Assembly: GCA_014879945.1 (NCBI GenBank)
Contig: JACSRE010000188.1
Location: 1-64,000 of the forward strand
Reading direction: 5' to 3'
Length of the DNA: 64,000 bases
From: Myxococcus sp.
GTDB lineage: Bacteria; Myxococcota; Myxococcia; Myxococcales; Myxococcaceae
The notes under the pieces were generated by a model, which was not told where the DNA came from, ran no database searches, and saw only the letters and a program-made list of their open reading frames with translations. Positions within the stretch are counted from its first letter, which is position 1. Each line of letters opens with the position of its first letter. Both the position numbers and the translations under genes were made by a program. Shown in pieces: positions 45,471 to 64,000 of the stretch.

Positions 45471-46349
45471 TTGCCTCTCGCGGAATCGAAGGCGCAGATC
45501 CTTGAGAAGTACGGCGCCTACGTCCGGTCGCTGGCTGCCCAGGTGCGCAAGCAGTTCAACTCCCAGTTCGAGATGGACGAGCTCGTCGCGTGGGGCCAGG
45601 TCGGGCTGCTCGAGGCCGCCGAGCGGTTCGATGCGCGGGTCGGCGCGAACTTTCTGACGTTCGCGCACTACCGCATCAAGGGCGCCATCTACGACGGCTT
45701 GCGCAAGATGGGCGTGCTCAAGGGCGGCGCGGCGGGTGGTGAGCGCGCCAACGCCTACCTGGGCAACCTCTCAGACCGCGAAGGGGGCGGGGGCGGGCTC
45801 GAAGACGAGGTCGAGCGCATCTCGAGCGCCGTCACCGGCCTGGCGATGGTGTTCGGCACCAGCCTGGACGGCGCCGACGCCATGCAGATGTCGGATGATG
45901 TGCTCCCTGCGGACGAGCGCATTCAGCTGGAGCAGATGCGCCGGCGGGTGCGCGGGGCCATCGAGAAGCTCCCGGAAAAAGAGCGAAAACTGCTCCAGGG
46001 TTACTACTTCCAGAACAAGACCCTGGAAGAGGCGGGCGCTGAGATCGGGCAGTCGAAGAGCTGGGCCAGCCGACTCCACGCGCGGGCAGTTGAACGGTTG
46101 AAGCAACTTCTCGAAGATGAAGACGATAACGAACCTGTAGACGACTTGAGGAGGCATCACCATGGCGGGTCCCCTGGCAGGAATCTCGGCGGCGCAAATC
46201 GCCCAGCAGAAGCTCCCTCAGCAGCAGGTCTCCCAGCAGGCCAAGGCGGGGCCAAGCTCGTTCGACAAGGCCATGAAGAGCCAGGGCGTCGACCAGGCTC
46301 AGAAGCCCCAGCAGGTGCAGGCCACCCAGCAGGTCCAGCACGCCGATAA
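45471..46349 (+). CDS. FliA/WhiG-type sigma factor with long out-of-frame overlap into sctI
   Basis: A sigma-70 family factor of the flagellar/WhiG class. Region 2 is FEMDELVAWGQVGLLEAAERF plus the following TFAHYRIKGAIYDGLRK, and region 4 is LLQGYYFQNKTLEEAGAEIG, then SKSWASRLHARAVERL (DNA-recognition helix), ending near residue 215. As read, the frame continues to 292 residues. The last 62 or so are Gly/Arg/Pro/His-rich and encoded over the 5' end of sctI in another frame; they are probably not functional, or reflect a frameshift (a TAG in the +1 frame at 46138-46140). TTG start follows AGAGGAG. It probably drives T3S genes; no FlgM-like anti-sigma is seen. Confidence 0.82.
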   Translation: MPLAESKAQILEKYGAYVRSLAAQVRKQFNSQFEMDELVAWGQVGLLEAAERFDARVGANFLTFAHYRIKGAIYDGLRKMGVLKGGAAGGERANAYLGNLSDREGGGGGLEDEVERISSAVTGLAMVFGTSLDGADAMQMSDDVLPADERIQLEQMRRRVRGAIEKLPEKERKLLQGYYFQNKTLEEAGAEIGQSKSWASRLHARAVERLKQLLEDEDDNEPVDDLRRHHHGGSPGRNLGGANRPAEAPSAAGLPAGQGGAKLVRQGHEEPGRRPGSEAPAGAGHPAGPARR

Positions 46350-46776: not shown

Positions 46777-47580
46777 ATGCCCCGGCACTTCTTTCGCGTC
46801 GTCCTCGTTCTGGCTGCCCTTGGTTTGTCCGCATGCTCGGTCGAGCTGCAGCACGACCTCCCCGAAGACGACGCCAACGACATCTACGTCCTCCTCCAGT
46901 TCCACGGCATCAGCGCCGCGAAGATGAAGGAGGAGGGCGGCAACGAGCCCCGCTACATCATCAGCGTGCCCAAGCAGGACGTGGCCGCCGCGGCCCAGCT
47001 GCTCAAGGATCACTCGCTGCCGCGCCCCAAGGCCGACGGCCTGGCCATCTTCAAGAAGATGAAGGGCATGATCCCCACGCAGACCGAAGAGCGGGCCATG
47101 TTCATCGAGGCGCTCGCGGGCGAGGTGTCGAACACGCTCAACCGCATTCCAGGGGTGCTCGAGGCCCGCGCGATCGTGATGATCCCCGAGGTGAACGATC
47201 TGACGCAGCCCGAGAAGCGGCCCTCGCCCTCGGCCTCGGTCTTCATCAAGTTCACCCCCGAAGACGGCAAGCCGCCGGTCACGCCGGCCGAGGTGCAGGA
47301 GTTCGTCGCCAACTCGGTCAGCGAGATGAAGAAAGAGAACGTGAAGGTGCTGATGATCGAGGCCAAGGCGGCCTCGTCAGCCGACGTCGAGCCCGAGAAG
47401 CGCATGCAGTCGGTGCTCGGGCTGCGCATGGAGAAGGCCAGCGGCGACTCGTTCAAGGTGATGGTGGCGGTCAACGCGCTGCTCTTCCTCGCGCTGGCCG
47501 GCGTGGCGGCGTTCCTCGTCATTCGGAAACCGGGCGGGAGCGGCAATGGCCGCCCGTCGCGCAAGACGCAGGAAGGCTGA
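46777..47580 (+). CDS. sctJ: SctJ inner-membrane ring lipoprotein (YscJ/PrgK/FliF-N)
   Basis: A 267-residue lipoprotein: signal MPRHFFRVVLVLAALGLSAC with acylated C20. The first ring-building motif contains DLPEDDANDIYVLLQFHGI, and the second is VSNTLNRIPGVLEARAIVMI. A single C-terminal span (MVAVNALLFLALAGVAAFLV, about 228-247) and a short cytosolic tail follow. Size and topology are those of injectisome SctJ; flagellar FliF is about twice as long with a FliG-binding tail, which this lacks. It begins the sctJ to sctU operon. Confidence 0.93.
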   Translation: MPRHFFRVVLVLAALGLSACSVELQHDLPEDDANDIYVLLQFHGISAAKMKEEGGNEPRYIISVPKQDVAAAAQLLKDHSLPRPKADGLAIFKKMKGMIPTQTEERAMFIEALAGEVSNTLNRIPGVLEARAIVMIPEVNDLTQPEKRPSPSASVFIKFTPEDGKPPVTPAEVQEFVANSVSEMKKENVKVLMIEAKAASSADVEPEKRMQSVLGLRMEKASGDSFKVMVAVNALLFLALAGVAAFLVIRKPGGSGNGRPSRKTQEG

Positions 47581-47605: not shown

Positions 47606-49075
47606 GTGGAACAGTTCTTCGCGTCACTCTCGAAGCGGCAGACGATGCTGCTGCTGACGTCGCTGGCGTTCGGCGGCTCCGACGCGATCGGCTCGTTCGA
47701 GCACTTGGCGCCTGAAGAAGAGGAGCTGCTCAAGCACCGGGCGCAGAGCCTCCTGCAGATCCCCCGCGACAAGCGCATTCCGCTCGTCATTCAAGAGATC
47801 AAGCGCATCGTCACCATGCGGCGGCGGCAGCTGGCCAACGCCGACCCCAGGCGGCTGGCGGCGCTGCTGTCGAAGGAGCGCAGCTCGATGGTCGAGGTGG
47901 TGCTGCGGGCGCTCCCGTCGGAGCTGGCCGACGCCTGCCGCGCTGAGCTCGGCCCGCGCCCGACCGTCAAGCTCGGGCGCGACGTGCGCCCCGACATTCT
48001 CTCGATCGTTCGTTGGAAGCTCGAGGAGGGCCTCAAGCAGGGCGCGCCGCAGGTCGGCATGTTCCGCTTCACCGATCTGCTGATGATGCCGCAGCGAGAG
48101 GTGATCTCGATCTGCGACCGCATGGGCGCCCGCGTCCTCGCGACGGCCGTCGCGGGCCTGAGCGACGGCGATCGCGAGGAGTTCTTCGGAAAGCTCCCGC
48201 CCGATCAGCGCGCGTTGGCGGCGAAGGCGGCCGAGGCGGGCAGGGCGCGCAGGCTGTCGGAGGCCGACGCCAGGACGGTGCTCGAGATCCACGGCGCGCT
48301 CGAGAACCCCTCGACGGGCATGCGCTCGGCCGGCGCGCAGCGGGTGATGCGGGCCGCGGTGGCCCAGGCGCCGGAGTTCGCGCAGCGCCTCGTCGAGCGG
48401 CACCTCAGCGGTGATCTCGGGAAGGTCCTCCAGCGGTGGCTGCGGGAAGAGAAGAACAAGCCCGTCAAAGGAGACGGCGGCAGGCTCGACATCGTCGAGC
48501 AGATCGAGCGCCTCGCGCAGAAGGGGGTCATCGATCGCCCGCTGCGGTTGCCGCCGCCCATGCGGCCGCCCGAGGCGATGGGGCCGCCGGTGCTGCAGCC
48601 CGTGCAGCCCTCGGCCGCGCCGCCCTCGCGGCGGAGCTCGTCGGGCAACCTCCCGCCCGTGCGCGGCGCGTCCCCGCCTCCGCCGGAGCCGGCACCGCCG
48701 GCCAGACCCGAGGGCCGGCCGGCCCGTCGCCCCGAGGGCCAGGGCGCGGGGGCGCCTCGTCGTGACCCCATCGCCGAGCGCAACGCCCGCCGCGCCGGGG
48801 TCGCCTCGTCGCGGCCTCCCCCGGCGTCGGGCGCGAACCTGCCGGTGAGCCGCAACGCGAACGACCCCTCGGCGTCAGGGGTGCGCCGCATCATGCGCGA
48901 CGGGAAGCCCCTGGCCAGAGATCCCGCGGCGCCGGCCCAGCCGGCCAGGCCGCCACGTCGCGCGATGACCTCCCCGGCCGTGCAGGAGGTGCCCAAACGC
49001 CGAGAGCGCGCACCAGACGGCAGCCCGCTCCCCAAGGGGTCGTCGGGGCGTGGACCGCGCGGAGGATCGGGCTAG
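47606..49075 (+). CDS. FliG-like protein in the SctK position
   Basis: A 489-residue protein. Residues about 60-155 resemble the FliG middle domain (LAALLSKERSSMVEVVLRALPSE). Residues 158-235 resemble the FliG C-terminal ARM part: MFRFTDLLMMPQREVISICD, then LATAVAGLSDGDREEFFGKL and RLSEADARTVLEIHGAL. The charged torque helix of FliG is not recognisable. Residues 300-489 form a Pro/Arg/Ala-rich disordered tail absent from FliG. In injectisomes the gene between sctJ and sctL encodes SctK, the adaptor between ring and sorting platform; a FliG-like protein would play the same structural part. Assignment is by pattern, not by a computed alignment. Confidence 0.7.
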   Translation: MEQFFASLSKRQTMLLLTSLAFGGSDAIGSFEHLAPEEEELLKHRAQSLLQIPRDKRIPLVIQEIKRIVTMRRRQLANADPRRLAALLSKERSSMVEVVLRALPSELADACRAELGPRPTVKLGRDVRPDILSIVRWKLEEGLKQGAPQVGMFRFTDLLMMPQREVISICDRMGARVLATAVAGLSDGDREEFFGKLPPDQRALAAKAAEAGRARRLSEADARTVLEIHGALENPSTGMRSAGAQRVMRAAVAQAPEFAQRLVERHLSGDLGKVLQRWLREEKNKPVKGDGGRLDIVEQIERLAQKGVIDRPLRLPPPMRPPEAMGPPVLQPVQPSAAPPSRRSSSGNLPPVRGASPPPPEPAPPARPEGRPARRPEGQGAGAPRRDPIAERNARRAGVASSRPPPASGANLPVSRNANDPSASGVRRIMRDGKPLARDPAAPAQPARPPRRAMTSPAVQEVPKRRERAPDGSPLPKGSSGRGPRGGSG

Positions 49076-49086: not shown

Positions 49087-49782
49087 ATGGAAGACGAACG
49101 TCGGCCACCCTCCCGCGTGTTGGGGAAGGTCATCAAGAGCGACAGCGGCGAGCACGGGCCCGTGTCGGAGAAGCCCCTCTTGCCTCCGCCCCGCCGCGGA
49201 GGTGTCGTCAACGCCGAGGAGTTCGAGGCGATGACAGCGGCCAAGCAGATCATCGCCGACGCCCAGCGCAAGGCCGAGGAGATCAAGACCGAGGCGCTCC
49301 GCTTCAAGGAAGAGGTCTTCTCGAAGGCCCGAGACGAGGCCAAGGCCGACGTTCAGGCCCGCGCCGCCGAGGAGCTGGCGCGCGCCAAGATGCAGGCCGG
49401 CGCGATCGTCGCCGACGCCGAGAAAGACGTGCTGGAGCTGGCCCTCAAGATGTCGGCGAAGATCATCGGCCGCGACCTCGAGCGCGACCCTGCGGTGGTG
49501 CTCGAGATCTGCGCCACGGCCATCGAGGCCGCGCGCGGGTCGAAGGCCATGGTGCTCAAGGTGCACCCCGAAGACGGCAAGGTGCTGCGCGAGAAGCGGC
49601 CCCGGCTGATGGAGCTCATCGGGCGCGCGGTGGACATCGCGATTCGCGACGACGCCGAGGTGGAGCGCGGCGGCTGCGTGATCCAGACCGAGTACGGCGT
49701 GATCGACGGTCAGATCCGCACCCAGTTCGAGATGCTCAAGAACGTGCTGATGCCCGATGGCCAGAAGAAGGAATCGAAATAG
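49087..49782 (+). CDS. sctL: SctL stator / ATPase regulator (YscL/FliH family)
   Basis: A 231-residue cytosolic protein. The N-terminal part is disordered and Pro-rich. A long Glu/Lys/Ala coiled coil (AAKQIIADAQRKAEEIKTEA and on, about 50-110) leads to the C-terminal domain of the FliH/YscL/V-ATPase E-type (AMVLKVHPEDGKVLREKRPR, VERGGCVIQTEYGVIDGQI). In the machine it ties the SctN ATPase to the cytosolic platform. Placed between the FliG-like gene and sctN, 2 bases before the latter. Confidence 0.92.
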   Translation: MEDERRPPSRVLGKVIKSDSGEHGPVSEKPLLPPPRRGGVVNAEEFEAMTAAKQIIADAQRKAEEIKTEALRFKEEVFSKARDEAKADVQARAAEELARAKMQAGAIVADAEKDVLELALKMSAKIIGRDLERDPAVVLEICATAIEAARGSKAMVLKVHPEDGKVLREKRPRLMELIGRAVDIAIRDDAEVERGGCVIQTEYGVIDGQIRTQFEMLKNVLMPDGQKKESK

Positions 49783-49784
49783 GC

Positions 49785-51107
49785 ATGGCCATCGACCTGA
49801 GGCGGTACCACGAGCTCCTCAAGACGGCGCAGACCGTTCGGGTGCGGGGGCGGGTCACCGAGCTGACCGGCCTCGTCATCAAGGCCGCGGTGCCGAACGT
49901 CCGCGTCGGAGAGGTGTGCATCATCAAGCGGGGGCACCAGTCGGTGCGCGCCGAGGTGGTGGGCTTTCAGGGTGAGCAGGTCATGCTGATGCCGCTGGGC
50001 GAGCTGTCGGGCATCGGCCCCGACAGCGAGGTGATCCCCACGGGGCGCCCGCTCACCATTCGCGCCGGCGACGGCCTGCTGGGCCGCGTGCTCAGCGGGC
50101 TGGGGGAGCCGATCGACGGCAAGCCGCTCCCCACCGACGGCATGCAGGACTGGGCGGTGGACCGCGACTGCCCCGACCCGTTCAAGCGCATGCGCATCAC
50201 CCGGCCGCTGGCCCTGGGCGTGCGCTGCATCGACGGGCTGCTCACGGTGGGCGAGGGCCAGCGCATCGGCCTCTTCGCCGGCTCCGGCGTCGGCAAGTCC
50301 ACCCTGATGGGGCAGATCGCGCGCAACACCACCGCTGAGCTCTCGGTCATCGCGCTGATCGGCGAGCGTGGTCGCGAGGTGCTCGAGTTCATCGAAGACG
50401 CGCTCGGTGAAGAGGGCATGAAGCGGTCGGTGGTGGTCTGCGCGACCTCTGACCAGCCGTCGCTGGTGCGTCTGCGCGCGGGCTACGTCGCCACCTCGAT
50501 CGCCGAATACTTCCGGGAGCGCGGCGGGAACGTGCTCTTCATGCTCGACACGGTGACGCGACTTGCGCGCGCCCAACGCGAGATCGGCCTGGCCATCGGT
50601 GAGCCGCCCGCGCGCCAGGGCTACCCTCCGAGCGTCTTCTCGATGCTCCCGCGCATGCTCGAGCGCACCGGCAACAGCGAGAAGGGCCGCTGCACGGCCA
50701 TCTACACCTGCCTCGTCGCCGGCGGTGACATGGAAGAGCCCATCGCCGACGAGGTGCGCGGTATTCTCGACGGTCACTTCATCTTGAACCGCGCCATCGG
50801 CGAGCGGAACCAGTGGCCCGCGATGGACGTGCTGGCCTCGCTCTCGCGTGTGATGAGCCAGATCGCCACGCCGGAGCACAAGAAGGCGGCCGGCCTGCTG
50901 CGCCAGACCCTCTCGACCTACGAGAAGCAGCGCGACCTCATCTTGCTCGGCGCCTACCAGTACGGCACCGACCCCCGCACCGACTACGCCATCGACAAGT
51001 ACGACCAGATCATCGGCTACCTGAAGCAGGACACCCACGACAACACGCCGTTCGACGAGACGGTGCAGCGGCTGGTCGACATGTTCGCTGACGCGCCCAC
51101 CACCTGA
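49785..51107 (+). CDS. sctN: SctN T3S ATPase (FliI/YscN)
   Basis: A 440-residue hexameric ATPase of the F1-beta/Rho family that unfolds and feeds substrates. Walker A is GSGVGKST (about 166-173), followed by VIALIGERGREVLEF, and Walker B lies in NVLFMLDTVTRLARAQREI. GYPPSVFSMLPRMLERTG is the family fingerprint. N-terminal beta-barrel 1-80 and C-terminal domain with LLGAYQYGTDPRTDYAID. Length is normal for both flagellar and injectisome enzymes. Confidence 0.97.
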   Translation: MAIDLRRYHELLKTAQTVRVRGRVTELTGLVIKAAVPNVRVGEVCIIKRGHQSVRAEVVGFQGEQVMLMPLGELSGIGPDSEVIPTGRPLTIRAGDGLLGRVLSGLGEPIDGKPLPTDGMQDWAVDRDCPDPFKRMRITRPLALGVRCIDGLLTVGEGQRIGLFAGSGVGKSTLMGQIARNTTAELSVIALIGERGREVLEFIEDALGEEGMKRSVVVCATSDQPSLVRLRAGYVATSIAEYFRERGGNVLFMLDTVTRLARAQREIGLAIGEPPARQGYPPSVFSMLPRMLERTGNSEKGRCTAIYTCLVAGGDMEEPIADEVRGILDGHFILNRAIGERNQWPAMDVLASLSRVMSQIATPEHKKAAGLLRQTLSTYEKQRDLILLGAYQYGTDPRTDYAIDKYDQIIGYLKQDTHDNTPFDETVQRLVDMFADAPTT

Positions 51108-51138: not shown

Positions 51139-51642
51139 ATGCCTCCGTACCGACTCCAGGTCCTGCTCGACATCCGCACCAAGGCGGAAGATGAGGCCAA
51201 AGAGGCCTTCTCGGCGTCCGTCAAGGCGCTCGAGGCCGAGAAGAAGAAGCTCGTCGGCATGCAGAAAGATCTCGACGACCGGAAGGTCGGGCGCAAGGCC
51301 AAGGTCGCGGCCTTCCTGGAAGAGGTCACCAAGAAGGGCGGCGGCATCAGCGGGTTTCAGCAGATGAACCGCTTCGAGCAGCGCCTCAAGGACGAAGAGG
51401 CCCAGCTCTCGCTCGAGATCGAGCGACAGAAAGAGGCGGTCACCGAGGCCGAGAAGCTCGTCGAGCAGCGCCGGCAGGAGATGGCCGAGGCGGCCACCGA
51501 GCGGAAGGCCATCGAGAAGCACAAAGAGACCTGGGCCAAGCAGGTGCGCTTCGAGCGGCAGCAGAAGGAAGAGATGAACCAGGAAGAGATCGGCGGCGTG
51601 CTCCACCTGGCCCGGCGCCGCGCCGCGGAGAAGAAGTCATGA
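51139..51642 (+). CDS. sctO: SctO central stalk protein (FliJ/YscO-like)
   Basis: A 167-residue, almost fully helical protein. Two long Glu/Lys/Arg-rich helices (RLQVLLDIRTKAEDEAKEAF and QRLKDEEAQLSLEIERQKEA) form an antiparallel coiled coil as in FliJ/YscO, which sits in the centre of the ATPase ring and contacts SctV. The N-terminal YRLQVLLDIR matches the FliJ pattern. Position after sctN and coupling to the next gene (ATGA overlap) support the assignment. Confidence 0.85.
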   Translation: MPPYRLQVLLDIRTKAEDEAKEAFSASVKALEAEKKKLVGMQKDLDDRKVGRKAKVAAFLEEVTKKGGGISGFQQMNRFEQRLKDEEAQLSLEIERQKEAVTEAEKLVEQRRQEMAEAATERKAIEKHKETWAKQVRFERQQKEEMNQEEIGGVLHLARRRAAEKKS

Positions 51643-52640
51643 GCCGCGTCGACGACGACCGCCAGGCAGCCCGCGCCGCCGAGCGCCAGATGGAGGCCCG
51701 GCGCAACGAGGAGCTCCAGAAGGGCAAGAAGGCCAGCGAGGCCACCACCTTCAAGAAGCTCGTCGGCCAGCAGCAGGCCCAGGGGCAGGCGCAGCAGAAG
51801 CACGCGACCCAGAAGCAGGCCGACCTGGGCAAGAGCGCCATCGCGTCGCTGCTCGAGGGCTCCGAGGCGCACGCCAAAGAAGAGACCAGGGGCGCCCGCG
51901 AAGGCCAGCAGACCTTCACCTCGCGGCTCAAGGGCTCGCACGCCACCGAGACGCAGCACAAGGCCACGCGCAACGAGGGCGAGCACCAGCAGGCCGTCGG
52001 CGAGGGAGGGCGGCAGGTCGATCAGCAGGGCGCCAGGGCCGCGCAGACCGACAAGGGGAACACCGCCCGCGCGCTCGAGGGCCGAAAGGCCGACGCCGCG
52101 CAGGGCCGAGCCGCCCTGGAAGAGGCGCACGAGTCGTCGGAGCTGTCGTCGACCGGCGCCGCGGCCGGGGCCGGTGGCGCACGCGGAGAGAAGGGCGACC
52201 TCAAGGCCGACGCCGACAAGGGTGGCGGTGGGCAGGGCGGCTCGGGTCAGAAAGACGGCAAAGACTCGCCCGCCATGCAGCCGGGCTTCCGCTTCAACCC
52301 CGCCCTCATGGCGCCGGTGCCGGTCGCCAAGCAGAAGGACGTCTCGGGCTCCGAGCGCCTGCGTCAGGTCGCCAACGAGCTGGCGCAGAAGATCGTCGAG
52401 CGGGTGCGCATCGGCACCAACGCCGCCGGCAAGGTCGAGTTTCAGATCGATCTGCGCAGCGACGTGCTCAAAGGCCTGAGCGTGAAGGTCTCGAGCCACA
52501 ACGGGAAGATCAAGGCGGTCTTCCAGGGCTCCGATCGCGACGTGCTCAAGCTGATCGAAGAGCAGAAAGAGGCGCTCACCAAGGCGCTCTCGGCGCGCGG
52601 CCTCTCGCTCGAGGACTTCAAGATCGAAGGCCGGCCGTGA
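51639..52640 (+). CDS. sctP: SctP needle-length/substrate-switch protein (YscP/FliK-like)
   Basis: A 333-residue protein. A hydrophilic Gln/Lys/Ala/Gly-rich N-terminal two thirds (likely the disordered ruler) precedes a globular C-terminal domain (about 245-330) of the Flg_hook type (VERVRIGTNAAGKVEFQIDL, LKGLSVKVSSHNGKIKAVFQ). FliK and YscP measure hook or needle length and trigger the substrate switch through FlhB/SctU. Start and stop both overlap neighbours (ATGA and GTGA). Confidence 0.8.
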   Translation: MSRVDDDRQAARAAERQMEARRNEELQKGKKASEATTFKKLVGQQQAQGQAQQKHATQKQADLGKSAIASLLEGSEAHAKEETRGAREGQQTFTSRLKGSHATETQHKATRNEGEHQQAVGEGGRQVDQQGARAAQTDKGNTARALEGRKADAAQGRAALEEAHESSELSSTGAAAGAGGARGEKGDLKADADKGGGGQGGSGQKDGKDSPAMQPGFRFNPALMAPVPVAKQKDVSGSERLRQVANELAQKIVERVRIGTNAAGKVEFQIDLRSDVLKGLSVKVSSHNGKIKAVFQGSDRDVLKLIEEQKEALTKALSARGLSLEDFKIEGRP

Positions 52641-54034
52641 GCGACAAGAGCGAGCGCACGATGATGATCGACGTCTCGAAGATCCGGCCCAAGGCGCCGG
52701 CTTCGGGCACGCAGACCGGTCGGCGCCCCGCCGCTTCGCCCCAGCCGGCTCGGGAGTGGAAGCCCTTCACCTTCGCCAACCTCGAGCGGGTCTCGAAGAC
52801 GCACAGCCGCCTGGTGCGCAACCTCGAGTGGATGCTGCCGAACGTGCGCTCGACGGGCGAGGTGAGCGAGTCGGTCAAGAAGCGCCTGAGCGACATGCTG
52901 GACGAGAAGATCTCGCTCCAGGCCGAGTACGTGCACTTCATTCACCCCTCGAAGCTCAAGCGCTACGTCGGCAACCCGACGTTCCTGGGCGTGCTGGCGC
53001 CGATTCCCAACAAGGCGCGCGGCCTGCTCGAGGTCGAGATCGGCCTGGCCCACTGGGCCATCGACACGCTGCTGGGAGGCACCGGCGAAGCGGTCGGCCT
53101 CCGGCCCCTCACCGACATCGAAGAAGGGGTGATGACCTTCGTGGTGCTCGAGACGCTCAAGGCGCTCGCGCCGAGCCTCGACAGCTCGCTCCCGAAGCTG
53201 CGCCTCGAGACCATCGCCCCCTCACTCGAAGAGGCGATGTCGGCGCTGAGCGAAGACGAGACGCTGGCGGTGGTGCAGCTCAAGGCGATCTTCGGCGGCC
53301 ACACCGGCTACGTGCGCCTGTTCGTGCCCGAGAGCGTGCTGGCGGTGGCCGAGCCGGCGCCCGACGCGCTGGTGCGCCGCCAACGCCGCGCCGTCGACGC
53401 GGTGGAGCACGCGTCGCGGTTGTCGAACGTGAAGGTCTGGCTCCGCGCCGTGATCGGCCAGGTCGAGATCTCGGCGGGCGACCTCGCCGAGCTGCGGGAG
53501 CGCGACGTGGTGCTCGTCGACGGCCTGTCGGCCCGGCCCGACGAAGGGCAGGGCGGCACCGCGCAGCTGAAGCTCGGGCTGGCGCGCACGGGCTACCTCG
53601 CGGCCGACATCGCGCTCGAGTCCGATCGGTTCCTCGCGACGGTGACGGCGATTCAGATCGGCGAGCCGCCACCGCCGGGCGCGCCCATCGAAGGTGAAGA
53701 GCCAGCGTCAGAGGGTGACGCGCGGCAAGACGAACAGATGGCGCTGGGCGATGGCCCAGATGAGTCCACCAACCCGGGAGCGCAGATGGACGAAGGTCAG
53801 GCGGAGGGGGCAGATCTGCTGAACGACGTGCCGTTGCAGATCGCAGTCGAGATCGGGCGCCTCCCGATCACCGCCGAAGAAGTGGTGAGCATCAAGGTCG
53901 GGCACGTCTTCGATCTCAACCGACAGGTGGGCGAGCCGCTCGACCTCTCGGTGAACGGCAAGATCGTCGCGCGCGGTGAGCTGGTCGAGATCGAAGGCAA
54001 CCTCGGCATTCGCATCGTCTCGCTCGCGGGCTGA
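52637..54034 (+). CDS. sctQ: SctQ C-ring protein, FliM-like plus two SpoA domains
   Basis: A 465-residue protein. Residues about 40-230 look FliM-like, including LLEVEIGLAHWAIDTLLGGT and RPLTDIEEGVMTFVVLETL. Two SpoA/FliN-type domains follow, about 280-345 (VEISAGDLAELRERDVVLV) and 395-462 (PLQIAVEIGRLPITAEEVVS, then GKIVARGELVEIEGNLGIRI). An acidic Asp/Glu/Gln linker (345-395) separates the SpoA domains. It is longer than injectisome SctQ (about 300-350) and resembles a fusion of FliM and FliN. A probable internal start at 53786 would release the last SpoA domain. GTG start overlaps sctP. Confidence 0.9.
   Translation: MSDKSERTMMIDVSKIRPKAPASGTQTGRRPAASPQPAREWKPFTFANLERVSKTHSRLVRNLEWMLPNVRSTGEVSESVKKRLSDMLDEKISLQAEYVHFIHPSKLKRYVGNPTFLGVLAPIPNKARGLLEVEIGLAHWAIDTLLGGTGEAVGLRPLTDIEEGVMTFVVLETLKALAPSLDSSLPKLRLETIAPSLEEAMSALSEDETLAVVQLKAIFGGHTGYVRLFVPESVLAVAEPAPDALVRRQRRAVDAVEHASRLSNVKVWLRAVIGQVEISAGDLAELRERDVVLVDGLSARPDEGQGGTAQLKLGLARTGYLAADIALESDRFLATVTAIQIGEPPPPGAPIEGEEPASEGDARQDEQMALGDGPDESTNPGAQMDEGQAEGADLLNDVPLQIAVEIGRLPITAEEVVSIKVGHVFDLNRQVGEPLDLSVNGKIVARGELVEIEGNLGIRIVSLAG
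53776..53788 (+). promoter_or_regulatory. internal ribosome-binding site and ATG in sctQ
   Basis: GGGAG (53776-53780), 5 bases of spacing and an in-frame ATG (53786-53788) lie in the acidic linker just before the last SpoA domain. Translation from here would give an 82-residue FliN-like product. In Yersinia, Salmonella and others sctQ yields such a short form by internal initiation and it is needed for the platform. Confidence 0.5.
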
Positions 54035-54035
54035 C

Positions 54036-54581
54036 ATGGGGCGCTGGCTGTTGCTGAGCGTGCTGCTCCAATCGGCCCTCGCGGGCGCCGAGGTGGACGC
54101 AGGGCTTGATGGTGGCGCCGCGACCGCGCAGGTGGTGGCCGAGCCCGGCCCGTCGCTGGCCGAGCCCGAGATTCCCCCGTCGGAGCCGCCGGAGCTGCTG
54201 CGTGACAGCGAGCTCGGGCTGGGCTGGGCGTTGGTGCGCACCCTCGTGGTGTTGGCGATGGTGGTGGTGCTCGCGTGGTTCAGCCTGAACGTGGTGCTTC
54301 GGCGCGTGATGGGCCTGGGGCCCGCGGCCGGCCGGCGGGGCATCGTCAACGTGGTGGAGCGGGTGCCGCTCGACCAGAAGCGCACGCTGTACGTGGTGCG
54401 GGCGGGCGACGAGGTGCTGCTGCTCGGAGGCAGCGACCTCTCGGTCACCTTCCTCACCAAGCTCGACGCCGGCGTGCTGGAACAGAGCGCCGCGAAGCCC
54501 GCCGGGCAGGTCGCCTTGAGCCCGTTCTTGCAGAGACTGCTGGGGAGGAAGGATGCTCCGCCGCCTCCTCCGGCCACCTGA
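54036..54581 (+). CDS. FliO-like membrane protein
   Basis: A 181-residue protein. The N-terminal stretch LLLSVLLQSALAGAEV is a signal sequence or first span, followed by an acidic Pro-rich segment. One clear membrane span is at about 68-90 (LVRTLVVLAMVVVLAWFSLN). The C-terminal cytosolic domain has the FliO core VVERVPLDQKRTLYVVRAGD, then VLLLGGSDLSVTFLTKLD. FliO is a flagella-specific assembly factor for FliP and is normally missing from injectisomes. The gene lies between sctQ and sctR, the place of fliO between fliN and fliP in flagellar operons. Confidence 0.82.
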   Translation: MGRWLLLSVLLQSALAGAEVDAGLDGGAATAQVVAEPGPSLAEPEIPPSEPPELLRDSELGLGWALVRTLVVLAMVVVLAWFSLNVVLRRVMGLGPAAGRRGIVNVVERVPLDQKRTLYVVRAGDEVLLLGGSDLSVTFLTKLDAGVLEQSAAKPAGQVALSPFLQRLLGRKDAPPPPPAT

Positions 54582-54600
54582 TCGACTGGACCCCTCGCAC

Positions 54601-55389
54601 ATGACGCGCCGCCTGTCTTACTGGTTCCTGTTCGCCTCGGTGCTGCTCGCGCCGGCCCTGGCGTTCGCGAAGAAGGGCGCGGCGAGCGGCGACGTGGGCA
54701 TCATGAGCGGAGGCGAGACGTCGTTCGCCAATCGCCCGCTGGTGCTGATGATCGCCCTCGGCGCGCTCGGCTTCGCGCCGTTCGTGTTGTTGATGGTGAC
54801 GAGCTTCGTGAAGATCTCGGTCGTGCTGTCGGTGGTGCGCTCGGCGCTGGGCACCCAGCAGATTCCCCCGACGCAGGTGATCACCGGCCTGGCGATCATC
54901 CTCACCGTCTACATCATGGCGCCGGTCGGCCAGGAGATGTTCAAGGCCGCCGACGACGGAGAGGTCGCCGAGGGGCGCAGCGTGCTGGACGCCAAGAACG
55001 TCGACACCCTGTTGGGCGCCGCGAACCGCAGCAAGGAGCCGCTGCGGAACTTCCTCATCAAGAAGGTCACCACGAAGGACCGAACGCTCTTCTACGGCCT
55101 GGCGCTCAAGCTGCGGAAGCCCGAAGACCGGCTGTCGATCACGAACAACGACTTCTTGATCCTCGTTCCGGCGTTCGTCGTCTCGGAGCTCAAAGAGGCG
55201 TTTCAGATCGGCTTCCTCTTGTTCGTTCCCTTCCTCGTGATCGACATGGTGGTCGCGAACATCTTGCTCGCGCTCGGCATGCAGATGCTGTCACCGACGA
55301 CGATCTCGATGCCGTTCAAGTTATTGCTCTTCGTGCTCGTCGACGGCTGGTACCTGATCGCGAAGGGTCTCGTCGTCGGCTACCTCTAG
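54601..55389 (+). CDS. sctR: SctR export-gate protein (FliP/YscR), with signal peptide
   Basis: A 262-residue core export-gate subunit. The N-terminus LSYWFLFASVLLAPALAFA looks like a cleavable signal peptide, which is typical of flagellar FliP but not of injectisome SctR. Conserved segments are PFVLLMVTSFVKISVVLSVV, SALGTQQIPPTQVITGLAI and FLLFVPFLVIDMVVANILLA, then MQMLSPTTISMPFKLLLFV. Another in-frame ATG at 54553 has a GGGAGG but would bury the signal peptide; ATG 54601 is preferred with reservation. Confidence 0.93.
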   Translation: MTRRLSYWFLFASVLLAPALAFAKKGAASGDVGIMSGGETSFANRPLVLMIALGALGFAPFVLLMVTSFVKISVVLSVVRSALGTQQIPPTQVITGLAIILTVYIMAPVGQEMFKAADDGEVAEGRSVLDAKNVDTLLGAANRSKEPLRNFLIKKVTTKDRTLFYGLALKLRKPEDRLSITNNDFLILVPAFVVSELKEAFQIGFLLFVPFLVIDMVVANILLALGMQMLSPTTISMPFKLLLFVLVDGWYLIAKGLVVGYL

Positions 55390-55400
55390 AGGGTCTCGCA

Positions 55401-55667
55401 ATGCACCAACTCACCTACGTCACGCAGCAGGCGCTGATCCTCGTGCTGGTCGCCTCGGGCCCGCCCATCATCATGAGCCTGATCGTGGGCTTCGCGGTCT
55501 CGGTCTTCCAGGCCGCCACCCAGATTCAGGAGCAGACGCTGTCGTTCGCGCCCAAGCTGGTCATCGTCTTCGGCGTGCTGGGCCTCGCCGGCCCGTGGAT
55601 CGGGTCTCAGCTGCTGCGCTTCACCTTCAACATCTACGACCGCTTCCCCGCGCTGATCGCGCACTGA
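55401..55667 (+). CDS. sctS: SctS export-gate protein (FliQ/YscS)
   Basis: An 88-residue protein with two membrane hairpin helices (ALILVLVASGPPIIMSLIVG and APKLVIVFGVLGLAGPWIG) joined by the family motif FQAATQIQEQTLSF. Forms part of the SctRST gate helix. Eleven bases after sctR and six before sctT. Confidence 0.95.
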   Translation: MHQLTYVTQQALILVLVASGPPIIMSLIVGFAVSVFQAATQIQEQTLSFAPKLVIVFGVLGLAGPWIGSQLLRFTFNIYDRFPALIAH

Positions 55668-55673
55668 CGACTC

Positions 55674-56504
55674 ATGGATCTGCCGGGCCTTCTCACCGAA
55701 GTCCGCAACCAGCTGGGCATCCAGACCGACCTCACGCAGGTCATGCTGGCCTTTGCCCTGTTGATGGGGCGCGTGCTCCCGGTGGTGATGCTGACCCCGT
55801 TCCTGGGCGGCGAGAGCGTGCCGTCTGAGGTGAAGCTGGGGCTCGGGGTGATGCTGGGGCTGGTGCTCTACCCGCTGTTGATCGCCCAGACCCGCGACGT
55901 GCCGGTCTCGCCGCTCATCTTCATCGCGCTGATGCTCAAGGAGCTCTTCATCGGGCTCTCGCTGACGATGGTGGTGAACATCATCTTCGACGCGGCGAAC
56001 GTGGCGGGCGGGCTCATCGACGTGATGTCGGGCACCAACCAGGCCCAGCTCTTCGTGCCCCAGCTCGGCCAGCAGGTGACGCTGTTCGCGAACCTCAACC
56101 TGCAGCTGACCACCGTGACGTTCCTGACCTTGAACGGCCACCACCTGGTCATCGAGGCCTTCGCCGACAGCCTGGCGTTGATTCGCCTCGATCAGGTGCC
56201 CCAGTTCAGCTCGGGCTTCTGGCCGTTCTTCGACACCGTCATTCGCATCTCGGGCGACATGTTGCGCATCGCGCTGGCCATCGCCTCGCCGGTGCTGCTG
56301 GCCACCTTCCTCACCGACCTCGCGCTCGGCATGATCAACCGCGTCGCGCCCCAGGTACAGGTGTTCTTCGTGGCCATGCAGATCAAGCCCGCCGTCACCA
56401 TCATGATCATGCTGACGGCCATGCACCTCATCTTGAGCCGCTCGGTCGAGGAGTTCGGGGTGATGTTCCGCTGGTTGAAGCTCGCCATTTCACTCCTCGC
56501 GTGA
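55674..56504 (+). CDS. sctT: SctT export-gate protein (FliR/YscT)
   Basis: A 276-residue protein with about six to seven membrane spans. Family segments are FALLMGRVLPVVMLTPFLGG, LGLVLYPLLIAQ, LMLKELFIGLSLTMVVNIIF and FLTLNGHHLVIEAF, with LALGMINRVAPQVQVFFV near the C-terminus. It completes the SctRST gate. ATG 55674 comes 6 bases after the sctS stop. Confidence 0.95.
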   Translation: MDLPGLLTEVRNQLGIQTDLTQVMLAFALLMGRVLPVVMLTPFLGGESVPSEVKLGLGVMLGLVLYPLLIAQTRDVPVSPLIFIALMLKELFIGLSLTMVVNIIFDAANVAGGLIDVMSGTNQAQLFVPQLGQQVTLFANLNLQLTTVTFLTLNGHHLVIEAFADSLALIRLDQVPQFSSGFWPFFDTVIRISGDMLRIALAIASPVLLATFLTDLALGMINRVAPQVQVFFVAMQIKPAVTIMIMLTAMHLILSRSVEEFGVMFRWLKLAISLLA

Positions 56505-56516
56505 CGGAGCGCCGCC

Positions 56517-57596
56517 ATGTCCGAGGGAGGTGACAAGACCGAGGAGCCGTCTCAAAAGAAGCTCGACGACGCACGCAAGGAAGGCAGCGTGTGGAAGTCG
56601 AAGGACCTGTCGGGCGTCTTCGCCTTCGCCATCGCGATGGGGGTGGTGAAGTCGACGTGGAGCACGGTCGAAGAGCGCATCACCATGCTCTTCCACTTCG
56701 TCTTCGATCACATCGCGCACCCGGTCGCGCTGAACATGGCGATCGCCCAGCTGCTCGCGCTGGCCCTCAGCACGCTGCTCTTGCTGTGCATTCCCATCGC
56801 GTTCTCGGCGGCCATCGCCGGCGGGCTGGTCGAGTTCCTCCAGGTCGGGCCGCTGCTGGCGATCAACGCGCTGATGCCGAAGCTCGACAAGCTCAACCCC
56901 ATCAGCGGGCTGAAGAACCTGATCGGCAAGAAGCAGATCATCGAGCTGGTGAAGTCCATGGCCAAGCTGGGCGTCACCGGCTGGGTCGTCTACGGCGTGG
57001 TGCGCGACGCCATGGCGCTGGTGGTGGCCACCATCTCGGGCGACGTCGCGATGACCATGACCGTGCTGGGGGAGCTGGTCTCGCGCGTCGTCACCAAGGT
57101 CACGATGCTCTTCATCGGCTTCGCGATCTTCGACGTCTGGTGGCAGCACAAGTCGTACATGAAGGACCAGATGATGTCGAAGGACGACGTCAAGAAGGAG
57201 TACAAGCAGAGCGAAGGCGACCCGCACCACAAGGCGCACCGCAAGCAGATGCACCAGGAGATCATGGAGGGCGCCCAGATGGAGGCCGTGCAGGGCGCCG
57301 ACGTGATCGTCACCAACCCAGACCACGTCGCGGTGGCCCTCAAGTACGATCGCGATCGCGACGGCGCGCCCCGGGTGCTGGCCAAGGGGCTCGACTTCAA
57401 GGCCGAGAAGATCAAGGCCATCGCGCGCGAGTCAGAGGTGCCCATGCTCCGCAACGTGCCGCTGGCGCACGCGCTGCTGCGCACCGAGGTCGGCCAGGAG
57501 GTGCCCGAGGAGCTCTACGACGCGGTCGCCGAGGTGCTGAACTTCGTCTACCAGCTCAAGAACCCGGCCCCCGCGCCGGCGCGCGCTTCGTCGTAG
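56517..57596 (+). CDS. sctU: SctU substrate-switch protein (FlhB/YscU) with NPDH in place of NPTH
   Basis: A 359-residue protein: four membrane spans in residues 25-210, a linker, and the cytosolic switch domain from about 225. The self-cleavage site is normally NPTH; here it reads NPDH (267-270), followed by the usual VAVALKYDRDRDGAPRVLAK. Cleavage occurs between Asn and Pro and helps the switch in substrate class; a change of Thr to Asp may alter it. The C-terminal EVGQEVPEELYDAVAEVL is typical. A free copy of the switch domain is encoded just downstream. Confidence 0.95.
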   Translation: MSEGGDKTEEPSQKKLDDARKEGSVWKSKDLSGVFAFAIAMGVVKSTWSTVEERITMLFHFVFDHIAHPVALNMAIAQLLALALSTLLLLCIPIAFSAAIAGGLVEFLQVGPLLAINALMPKLDKLNPISGLKNLIGKKQIIELVKSMAKLGVTGWVVYGVVRDAMALVVATISGDVAMTMTVLGELVSRVVTKVTMLFIGFAIFDVWWQHKSYMKDQMMSKDDVKKEYKQSEGDPHHKAHRKQMHQEIMEGAQMEAVQGADVIVTNPDHVAVALKYDRDRDGAPRVLAKGLDFKAEKIKAIARESEVPMLRNVPLAHALLRTEVGQEVPEELYDAVAEVLNFVYQLKNPAPAPARASS

Positions 57597-57622: not shown

Positions 57623-57895
57623 GTGGCTGAAGACCCCGAGATGGCGATCGCCCTGAAGTACGACCGCGAGAAGGACGGCGCGCCGCGCGTCATCGCCAAG
57701 GGCATGCGGCTCAAGGCCGAGAAGATCAAGGAGCTCGCCAGGGCGGCCGGCGTGCCCTTCATGAAGAACACCACCCTGGCGGCGGCGCTCTATCGCGTCG
57801 ACGTCGGCCAGGAGGTGCCCGAAGAGCTCTATGACGCGGTCGCCGAGGTCTTGAACTTCGTGTACGCGCTGCAGCAGGAACAGAAGAAGAAGTGA
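57623..57895 (+). CDS. stand-alone FlhB/SctU C-terminal domain protein
   Basis: A 90-residue protein nearly collinear with the switch domain of the preceding SctU after its cleavage site (AIALKYDREKDGAPRVIAKG and VDVGQEVPEELYDAVAEVLN). The N-P-x-H site and membrane part are absent; the N-terminus is MAEDPEMAIALKYD. Similar small proteins (FhlB/YlqH) occur in flagellar bacteria and can partly replace the FlhB C-terminal part. Probably a local duplication of the sctU 3' end. It starts at GTG without a Shine-Dalgarno. Confidence 0.88.
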   Translation: MAEDPEMAIALKYDREKDGAPRVIAKGMRLKAEKIKELARAAGVPFMKNTTLAAALYRVDVGQEVPEELYDAVAEVLNFVYALQQEQKKK

Positions 57896-60960: not shown

Positions 60961-63090
60961 ATGGTCTCCGGCCCCAATAGCTTCCTCAGCAAGTACTCAG
61001 ACATCGTCCTCGCGATCATCGTGATCTCGATCATCGGCATGCTGATCGTGCCGCTGCCGACGCTCCTGCTCGACGTGCTGCTGACGGTGAACATCAGCCT
61101 GTCGGTCATCATCCTGCTGATGACCATCTACATCCCCGGGGCGCTGCAGTTCAGCGTGTTCCCCACGCTGCTGCTGCTCACCACGATGTACCGACTGTCG
61201 CTGACGGTCTCGACCACCCGGCTCATCCTCTCGACGGGTGACGCGGGCGAGGTCGTCTACGCCTTCGGCAACTTCGTGGCGCGCGGCAACTTCGTCGTCG
61301 GTGGCATCATCTTCGTGATTCTGGTGGTGGTGAACTTCATCGTCATCGCGAAGGGCTCCGAGCGCGTCTCGGAGGTCGCGGCCCGCTTCACCCTCGACGC
61401 CATGCCCGGCAAGCAGATGTCGATCGACGCCGACCTGCGCGCCGGGTCCATCGACATGGACGAGGGCAAGCGCAAGCGCCGCGACCTCGAGCGAGAGAGC
61501 CAGCTCTTCGGCGCCATGGACGGCGCCATGAAGTTCGTCAAAGGCGACGCCATCGCCGGCATCATCATCACCGTCATCAACGTCGTCGGCGGCCTCGCGA
61601 TCGGCGTGGCCCAGAAGGGCATGGCGGTCGGTGACGCGGCCAAGAAGTACTCGCTCCTGACCATCGGCGACGGCCTGGTCGGCATGATCCCCGCGATCCT
61701 CATCTCGACGGCGGCCGGCATCATCGTGACGCGCGTCGGCGGCGAAGAAGAGGGGGCCCACCTCGGTAAGGACATCGGCGGGCAGCTGGTCGCCTTCCCC
61801 CGCGCGATCGCCATCGCCGGCGGCATGTTGATCGGCCTGGGCCTCATTCCGGGTCTGCCCAAGGTGCCCTTCTTCATCATGGGCGCGCTGGCCGGCGGCG
61901 GCGCCTGGAAGCTGATGCAGAGCAACAAGAAGAAGGCCGAAGGCGGCGGTGACGGCGAGAGCGACGGCGAGCCCGGCGAAGACGGTGAGACGCCCGCGGC
62001 GGCCGAGCCCCAGCCCAAGGAGCCCATCAACCCCGACTCCGAGCTCTTCATCCCCGTGGTGACCCCGATCGTCATCGAGGTCTCCGACGCGCTGGTGCCC
62101 TTCGTGGACTCGCGGCAGGACGGCGGCAAGTTCCTCTACGAGCTGATTCCCTTCATGCGCGACGGGCTCTTCGTCGAGCTGGGCGTTCGCTTCCCCGGCG
62201 TTCGGGCGCGCGGTAACCCGGGGCTCCCGCCGGGCGCGTACCAGATTCAGATCAACGAGGTGCCGGTGGTGACGGGCCAGGCGACGCTCGGCCACATCCT
62301 GGTGAACGACACCGTCGATCGCCTGCGGCTGATGAACATCGACGGCTTCGAGGCGGTGAACCCCGCGACGCGGCAGCCGGCGGCGTGGGTGCCCGAGCAG
62401 AACAAAGAGATGCTCGAGTCGGCGGGCCTCACCACGTGGGACGTGCCGGGCTACATCATCCTGCACCTCGCCAGCGTGCTGCGCCGACAGGCGCGCGAGT
62501 TCCTGGGCGTTCAAGAAGTGCAGTCGATGCTCGATCAGCTCGAGAAGGCCTTCCCGGCGATCGTCAAAGAGGTCGTGCCCAAGGTCGTCACGGTGCTGAA
62601 GCTGACCGACGTGCTCGGGCGCCTCGTCGAGGAAGAGATCTCGATTCGAGACATGCGCGGCATCCTCCAGGCGATCGCGGAGCACGGGCAGACCGAAGCC
62701 GACAGCGTGATGCTGACCGAGCACGTGCGCTCGTCGCAGAAGCGCTACGTCTCGCACAAGTACGCGCGCGGCACGAACACGCTGATCGTCTACCTGCTCG
62801 ACCCGCAGATCGAAGACGCGATTCGCAGCTCGATCAAGCGCACCTCGGCGGGCACGCACCTCGCGCTGGAGCCCGACATCGCGCAAGAGATCGTGCAGGC
62901 CGTGAAGAACGAGTGCGGCCACCTGCCGCCGACGGCGCAGCGGCCCGTCATCCTCACCTCGATGGACATCAGGCGCTACGTGCGCAAGCTGCTCGAGTAC
63001 GAGTTCAACCCGCCGTTCTCGGTGGTCAGCTACCAGGAGCTGTCGCCTGAGCTGAACATCCAGCCGGTGGCGCGCATCAGCACCCGCTGA
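60961..63090 (+). CDS. sctV: SctV major export-gate protein (FlhA/YscV)
   Basis: A 709-residue protein with about eight membrane spans in residues 15-325. The family (FHIPEP) motif region is FTLDAMPGKQMSIDADLRAG. A cytosolic linker (about 325-360, Gly/Glu/Asp-rich) leads to the nonameric ring domain (360-709) with SELFIPVVTPIVIEVSDALV and VLADVLLTV-like early spans. The cytosolic ring receives chaperone-substrate complexes. It stands apart from the sctJ-sctU operon, after three TPR chaperone genes, and has its own promoter-like element. Confidence 0.96.
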   Translation: MVSGPNSFLSKYSDIVLAIIVISIIGMLIVPLPTLLLDVLLTVNISLSVIILLMTIYIPGALQFSVFPTLLLLTTMYRLSLTVSTTRLILSTGDAGEVVYAFGNFVARGNFVVGGIIFVILVVVNFIVIAKGSERVSEVAARFTLDAMPGKQMSIDADLRAGSIDMDEGKRKRRDLERESQLFGAMDGAMKFVKGDAIAGIIITVINVVGGLAIGVAQKGMAVGDAAKKYSLLTIGDGLVGMIPAILISTAAGIIVTRVGGEEEGAHLGKDIGGQLVAFPRAIAIAGGMLIGLGLIPGLPKVPFFIMGALAGGGAWKLMQSNKKKAEGGGDGESDGEPGEDGETPAAAEPQPKEPINPDSELFIPVVTPIVIEVSDALVPFVDSRQDGGKFLYELIPFMRDGLFVELGVRFPGVRARGNPGLPPGAYQIQINEVPVVTGQATLGHILVNDTVDRLRLMNIDGFEAVNPATRQPAAWVPEQNKEMLESAGLTTWDVPGYIILHLASVLRRQAREFLGVQEVQSMLDQLEKAFPAIVKEVVPKVVTVLKLTDVLGRLVEEEISIRDMRGILQAIAEHGQTEADSVMLTEHVRSSQKRYVSHKYARGTNTLIVYLLDPQIEDAIRSSIKRTSAGTHLALEPDIAQEIVQAVKNECGHLPPTAQRPVILTSMDIRRYVRKLLEYEFNPPFSVVSYQELSPELNIQPVARISTR

Positions 63091-63099
63091 GCCGCGTCG

Positions 63100-64000
63100 T
63101 CAGGCGACGAAGACGAGCACCACCAGCACGATCGCGATCAAGACGAAGAGGCCCACCGCGCCGAGCGCGATCAGCGTCTGCTTGTTCGAGAAGTCGATGA
63201 GCTTGCCGTTGCCGGCGGGCTCGTCGTCGTCGAGCGGCGGATCTTCCGAGGTGTTGGCGGGGTTCTCGAGGCCGTCTTCGAGGGGCGCGTCAGGGTCGCC
63301 TTCGGGAGGAGGCTCGGCGGGGCTCTCGTCGGGTGGAGGCTCTTCTGCAGGGGCCTCCGGCTCTGGCTCGGGCTCGGGCTCGGGGGCCTGGGGCTCCTCG
63401 GCCACGCTGACGGTGCCTTCGTCGTGCTCCTGCGACTCCGACGGCATCAGCACGGGCGTCTCGCGCACCTCGGAAGGGTCGAGGAAGAGCAGCTTGACGC
63501 CGCCGATCTCGAGCTCGTCGCGGTCCTTGAGCGTCACCTTCTTGGTGCGCTTCTTGTTCACCTTGATGCCGTTGCGGCTCTCGAGATCTTCGACGTGCGT
63601 GCCAGACCAGTCGCGGCGCACCCGGGCGTGGCGCCTCGAGACGAGGTCGTCGTTGAGCACGATGTCGGCCGAGTCGTCGCGCCCGAAGACGTACTCCTGC
63701 GCGTCGCCCATCTCGATGCGCTGCCCCTCTTTGGGCCCGTTCATCACGCGGAAGTAGGGCTGCTCGCCCCCGCTGCCGAGGCCCTTCATCACGTCCTTCA
63801 CCAGGTTCCGGCTGACGAACATGGTGTTGCCGGCGTTGCTCTCGGTGACGTCGGCGATGCGATCGAACACCACGTCGAACTGGGCGATGGCGATGGTGTC
63901 GCCGTTGCTGAGCAGCTGCTTCTCTTTCTTCTTCAGCTTGGCGCCGTTGAGCAGGGTGCCGAAGCTCGAGCCGAGATCTTCGAGGAAGAAGAGGGTGCCG
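63100..64000 (-). CDS. double-FHA, tail-anchored protein (5' part beyond window)
   Basis: Partial: 299 codons visible, the N-terminus lies past 64000. The first FHA domain is seen from its C-terminal half (LEDLGSSFGTLLNGAKL). A second full FHA domain covers the next 130 residues (YVFGRDDSADIVLNDDLVSR, then VEDLESRNGIKVNKKR). A 75-residue Glu/Pro/Asp-rich linker leads to a single C-terminal span (TLIALGAVGLFVLIAIVLVV) with almost nothing after it. FHA domains bind phospho-Thr. SctD also has a cytosolic FHA and one span but needs a large periplasmic part, absent here. Convergent with sctV, 9 bases apart. Confidence 0.85.
   Translation of the reverse strand, partial: GTLFFLEDLGSSFGTLLNGAKLKKKEKQLLSNGDTIAIAQFDVVFDRIADVTESNAGNTMFVSRNLVKDVMKGLGSGGEQPYFRVMNGPKEGQRIEMGDAQEYVFGRDDSADIVLNDDLVSRRHARVRRDWSGTHVEDLESRNGIKVNKKRTKKVTLKDRDELEIGGVKLLFLDPSEVRETPVLMPSESQEHDEGTVSVAEEPQAPEPEPEPEPEAPAEEPPPDESPAEPPPEGDPDAPLEDGLENPANTSEDPPLDDDEPAGNGKLIDFSNKQTLIALGAVGLFVLIAIVLVVLVFVA

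Follow-up and report, generated by a model that had tools for sequence, protein, structure and literature searches.

The closest described systems to the one analysed here are the non-flagellar type III secretion systems (T3SSs) of Myxococcota, which have been characterised as lacking FliE and FliG (Abby and Rocha, 2012; PMC3459982) and are thought to have been the first group to branch among the non-flagellar T3SSs (PMC3459982). The review of the T3SS* of Myxococcus xanthus names SctD, J, I, Q, RSTUV, N and L, and neither SctK nor FliG (PMC10433427); prey lysis requires this system (PMC12075869). As regards SctK itself, its structure was termed a unique fold (PMC8211105), its flagellar counterpart is listed in one review as "FliG (?)" (PMC4045390), and a clear flagellar homologue of the Salmonella SctK protein was denied in a 2015 paper (PMC4443714). 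Rotor proteins without filament proteins have also been reported for non-motile species (11%; PMC12199754). A search of the open-access literature revealed no link between FliG and a Myxococcota secretion system.

Our profile searches and fold comparison establish that a homolog of FliG is encoded within a T3SS gene cluster of Myxococcus sp., in the window under study, i.e. the whole stretch of 64,000 nucleotides that was analysed. The open reading frame that the initial annotation had described between sctJ and sctL, at 47606-49075 of the forward strand, exists: it starts with GTG and encodes 489 amino acids; sctJ ends 25 bp upstream and sctL starts 11 bp downstream. The features of the window are:

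46777..47580, + strand: sctJ, inner-membrane ring lipoprotein, adjoining the FliG-like gene (family models)
47606..49075, + strand: FliG-derived protein in the SctK slot, 489 aa
47606..47821, + strand: its N-terminal helical domain, residues 1-72, weakly FliG_N-like (Pfam FliG_N in 6 of 38 family members)
47831..48043, + strand: FliG_M-like domain, residues 76-146, with E91 as the counterpart of the invariant Glu in the EHPQR motif of FliG
48059..48295, + strand: FliG_C-like lobe 1, residues 152-230, with the MFXF motif at its start and the torque charges replaced
48302..48541, + strand: FliG_C-like lobe 2, residues 233-312, which with lobe 1 matches PscK (SctK) in predicted fold
48542..49072, + strand: Pro/Arg/Ala-rich tail, residues 313-489, missing from homologs in other Myxococcota families
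49087..49782, + strand: sctL, FliH homolog (family models)
49779..51107, + strand: sctN, FliI homolog, export ATPase (start assigned manually)
51139..51642, + strand: sctO, YscO-like, FliJ counterpart (family model)
51639..52640, + strand: sctP, FliK counterpart (Flg_hook slightly under the cut-off)
52637..54034, + strand: sctQ, FliM-FliN fusion including the FliM middle domain (family models)
53075..53086, + strand: GGTG motif of SctQ, residues 147-150, counterpart of the FliG-binding GGxG of FliM
53976..54581, + strand: fliO homolog (family models)
54553..57596, + strand: sctR, sctS, sctT and sctU, export gate
60961..63090, + strand: sctV, FlhA homolog (family model)

Family models identify sctJ, sctL, sctO, sctQ, fliO, sctR, sctT, sctU and sctV in the window, and the SctI of the cluster is recognised weakly by Pfam (E 0.11). 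The set SctJ, I, Q, RSTUV, N and L of the Myxo non-flagellar T3SS and T3SS*, systems not known to have a secretin, needle or translocon, is present in its conserved order, and this gene content and order, rather than a named M. xanthus record, lead us to infer that the cluster is the same system as the T3SS* of M. xanthus. The order in the window (sctJ, the FliG-like gene, sctL-sctN-sctO-sctP-sctQ-fliO-sctR-sctS-sctT) matches that of E. coli K-12 (fliF-G-H-I-J-K-L-M-N-O-P-Q-R), fliL aside, and by this comparison the FliG-like gene has the place of fliG. In Yersinia-type injectisomes the same place is occupied by sctK. The FliG-like gene lies between sctJ and sctL in the window as well as at the loci with complete clusters, and nothing else fits this slot, which supports the placement of the protein in the initial annotation.

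Several further genes of the neighbourhood deserve mention in their own right. A FliA/WhiG-type sigma factor (45471-46349), kept in several Myxococcota families, heads the secretion operon and overlaps sctI. A free second copy of the C-terminal domain of SctU/FlhB (57623-57895) follows directly after sctU, likewise in G120. At 63100-63873 of the reverse strand lies a tail-anchored protein with a YscD-type FHA domain, an acidic-Pro linker and a C-terminal membrane span, which is possibly the SctD counterpart. The same genome carries on contig C1 a second, divergent non-flagellar T3SS, from SctQ to SctV, in which a 146-aa protein of unknown kind precedes SctQ; this protein was considered as a FliG relative, and no similarity was found.

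Taken singly, the window protein reveals its ancestry mainly through the C domain: Pfam FliG_C matches residues 152-222 with E 2.1e-10 (41.2 bits against a cut-off of 23.3), the NCBIfam FliG model gives a weak match far under its own cut-off, as expected because the protein is a divergent relative, and a PDB search with the single sequence returned weak FliG rows only. When an alignment of 38 secretion-system family members was compared by hhalign with one of 22 flagellar FliGs of Myxococcota, the two matched with E 1e-18 and 99% probability over the N, M and C domains; the family lacks the linker between N and M as well as about 40 residues corresponding to ARM_C, which should lie between the M domain and MFXF. 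Of the 17 rows that a search of PDB sequences with the family profile returned, the first 15 are FliG (best 7e-14). Thus the FliG likeness, which had been noticed in the middle of the protein, is real, but it is not confined to the middle. Pfam detects FliG_C in 37 of the 38 members, FliG_M in 20 (E of up to 1 being allowed, with 2e-8 as the best value; in the PDB search the profile matches FliG_M with 3e-8) and FliG_N in 6 (best 2.2e-4), and the N part, which hhalign aligns at low per-position confidence, is the weakest of the three domains. The residues that were kept are structural ones: the Glu of EHPQR, which is invariant while the remainder of that motif varies (Myxococcaceae have ER), the FxFxD of the MFXF motif (MFRFTDLL at residue 152), and a late Ala. 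The C-terminal half contains two lobes, which match FliG_C with E 2.6e-9 (lobe 1) and 1.7e-4 (lobe 2) and each other with 3.2e-4; when the columns of lobe 2 were shuffled 40 times, the best values obtained were 0.039 and 0.067. Since both lobes are FliG_C-like and resemble each other, an internal duplication likely made them, although the case for the second lobe is modest.

We consider it quite probable that the window protein is an ancient FliG paralog of the Myxococcota needleless T3SS, which serves as an adaptor between the inner-membrane ring (SctJ, perhaps together with the FHA protein) and the SctQ (FliM-FliN) pods and so does the job of SctK. Its position, its partners and the missing torque residues all point to such a static adaptor. 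The N-terminal domain would dock to the inner-membrane ring, the FliG_M-like domain would bind the GGxG region of SctQ, the two-lobed C-terminal half would be the part that injectisomes retain as SctK, and nothing in the secretion complex would rotate. In flagella, the GGxG motif of FliM binds FliG, and SctK binds the FHA domain of SctD and the N-domain of SctQ. A match to the SctQ profile was found in 20 of the 21 genomes examined, a few of these being flagellar FliM/FliN-type matches only. The GGTG of the window SctQ is the counterpart of GGDG in E. coli FliM, and about half of the SctQs have an exact GGxG, most others a close form. Several observations count against our explanation: the motif is degraded in several SctQs, mainly where sctJ and the FliG-like gene have split off; a FliF-type FliG-binding C-terminus was not seen on SctJ, the cytosolic tail of which is short; EHPQR survives only in part; two loci have no sctJ close to the gene; and the likeness to SctK is one of predicted fold, with a moderate Z, and does not extend to sequence. 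In other families, a conserved basic helix (RLxRLQxEIAKARRKP-like) follows the membrane span and ends the SctJ of L070, L073, L075, L076 and L078; it is a candidate docking site.

Of 195 Myxococcota genomes, 114 contain homologs of residues 1-310. Within the family of the window these are 49 to 94% identical to the window protein, and in most other Myxococcota families they measure 329-396 aa, with about 20-25% identity and without the Pro/Arg tail. The gene adjoins sctJ at 17 of the 19 distant loci examined, split-off pairs included (15 loci and two more where contig ends interrupt), and no sctJ was found near it at L071 and L084. Several families have the full order sctI-sctJ-FliG-like gene-sctL-sctN-sctO, and in others the pair of sctJ and the FliG-like gene stands apart from the remaining cluster (L068, L069, L074, L082). 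The long tail that had been noted is indeed rich in Pro, Arg and Ala (24, 16 and 14% of residues 313-489) and its dN/dS against close relatives is 0.15-0.56. It is no part of the proposed conversion of a rotor protein to an adaptor, because homologs in other families do without it; the tail is a lineage-specific extra of Myxococcaceae. One would argue that a tail so long, variable and lineage-specific, and a gene pair that in some families stands apart from the cluster, indicate a FliG-derived protein with another main job, namely, possibly by means of the tail, to regulate export or to position the complex where the prey is contacted. We regard this as improbable: other families have no such tail, and the partner motif of SctQ and the position in the operon favour the platform.

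The predicted structures bring SctK into the comparison. In the AlphaFold model of residues 1-330 of the window protein (pLDDT 88), the first 12 rows of the VIA-align ranking are FliG chains (Z 10.2 to 6.3), followed by PscK (6uie; Z 6.0, 3.5 A, 117 residues, model residues 154-312). The row after PscK is HlyD (Z 5.7), which concerns the N-terminal helices; HlyD and similar helical chains were rejected as relatives of this domain. In the model of the C-terminal half of the distant member L073 (pLDDT 94.5), 14 FliG entries came first (Z 9.9 to 7.8, best 2.4 A over 93 residues), PscK came next (Z 7.3, 3.6 A over 130 of 187 residues), and no unrelated chain exceeded 4.7; PscK spans more of this model than FliG does. 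PscK is therefore the best non-FliG row for the C-terminal region in both models; its Z is moderate for an all-helical fold, where such values can be common, and the ranking depends on VIA-align as the second aligner, Foldseek having given no E < 0.001 for either model. We take the match seriously because the following row scores clearly lower, because of the coverage, and because the gene slot is shared. The initial annotation had set FliG and SctK as alternatives; FliG came first, but the predicted C-terminal half resembles both FliG_C and PscK, and profile searches and fold comparison agree on the proposed FliG ancestry.

Could the protein then be an ordinary SctK, which looks like FliG merely because both stack short helices? 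It fills the slot between sctJ and sctL, and its C-terminal half matches PscK over 130 residues. However, sequence profiles reach FliG and never SctK: hmmscan with the SctK families (YscK and others) gave no match in 38 and 26 members, and a sequence search with the PscK-matching C-terminal region did not find PscK (a YscK scan of Myxococcota was also empty, but it is uninformative, as the control genomes gave no match either). The FliG profile matches of 1e-14 to 1e-18 largely refute this explanation, and FliG_M followed by MFXF is kept in order, with the FliG_N- and FliG_M-like parts standing before the SctK-like part, so we hold it to be very improbable. A kinship of FliG and SctK is suggested instead. 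It is somewhat better than an even chance, in our judgement, that the SctK of injectisomes descends from FliG: in the T3SS lineage, ARM_C and the torque charges would have disappeared and a second lobe of the FliG_C type would have been added, Myxococcota would keep that state, and injectisomes would later have retained mainly the two-lobed C-terminal half.

The torque residues, numbered as in E. coli K-12 FliG and verified on its sequence, separate the family from the flagellar proteins. In the flagellar set of 23 FliGs, K264 and R281 are invariant, D288 and D289 are D/E, and R297 is R/K. In the secretion-system family, the K264 position is uncharged (A, V or others), that of R281 usually carries D, E or Q, and D288/D289 have mostly given way to uncharged or basic residues; at the R297 position distant members have D and Myxococcaceae have R, with Arg/Lys kept only in their lobe 1. 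The alignment of Myxococcaceae near D288/D289 moves by one position between runs, and the acidic pair is restored in neither. The pattern is also missing when the torque helix is placed in lobe 2, where some distant members have E at D288. The torque helix was reported earlier as not visible; its charges are gone, but the region itself is present. Such a retained FliG_C fold, with Arg/Lys at the R297 position of Myxococcaceae lobe 1, would suit a working rotor turned by a MotA-like stator, for example by gliding-motor proteins. We find this extremely improbable, considering that neither lobe keeps K264, R281 or the D288/D289 pair and that no stator gene was recognised among the scanned proteins of the cluster.

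The FliG-like gene is probably old and has been maintained. Compared with four close relatives, the dN/dS of its core is 0.06-0.18, and with a fifth it is 0.32; the gene is conserved under purifying selection. No FliG_N match was found in 83 of the 114 host genomes; therefore, the FliG-like protein is kept there without a detectable flagellar FliG. The genome of the window does contain a true flagellar FliG, in a flagellar gene cluster. In the tree, flagellar FliGs, including that of E. coli, are split from the secretion ones at 100/99, and no tree was found that places the window protein among the flagellar FliGs of its own phylum; with its long branches and unplaced root, the tree does not show the secretion proteins, which fall into two groups, to be one clade. 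A relic recently captured from the flagellum and without a role in secretion, which the flagellar cluster of the same genome might suggest, is hardly believable, as the flagellar FliGs all lie on one side of this long-branched split, the gene is kept across families under purifying selection and most hosts have no flagellar FliG_N match.

Compared with the reference, flagellar FliG (PF14842, PF14841, PF01706; A. aeolicus 3hjl, T. maritima 1lkv, H. pylori 3usw), the family has the same N-M-C domain order, MFXF, the invariant Glu of EHPQR, the C-domain fold (2.4 A, 93 residues) and a gene that follows the one for the ring and precedes the one for FliH. It differs in having no ARM_C and no N-M linker, in the extra FliG_C-like lobe, in the replaced torque charges, in a host that needs no flagellum and, in Myxococcaceae, in the Pro/Arg tail. 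With SctK (PscK of P. aeruginosa, PDB 6uie; YscK, MxiK, OrgA) the window protein shares the slot between sctJ and sctL and, according to the models, the fold of the C-terminal half (Z 7.3, 3.6 A, 130/187 residues), but no detectable sequence similarity, and nothing in the matched region of PscK corresponds to its FliG N- and M-like domains. A FliG-derived protein with an SctK-like half in this slot makes the question whether SctK is the counterpart of FliG a testable one, and the protein may be a link between the motor of the flagellum and the platform of the injectisome. The Myxo non-flagellar T3SS (PMC3459982) and the needleless T3SS* of M. xanthus (PMC10433427, PMC12075869) come from the same organism group and have the same gene set and order, but FliG is reported in none of these three descriptions; a FliG-derived protein is thus found in a group stated to have none (PMC3459982). 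Such secretion proteins may account for some of the non-motile species with rotor proteins but no filament proteins (PMC12199754). Finally, the FliF-FliG_M fusion of Chlamydia (PMC4768692) is likewise a domain of a rotor protein, one kept in a bacterium thought to be non-flagellated; in Chlamydia the FliG_M-like region is fused to FliF, whereas in the window it belongs to a free protein in the SctK slot.
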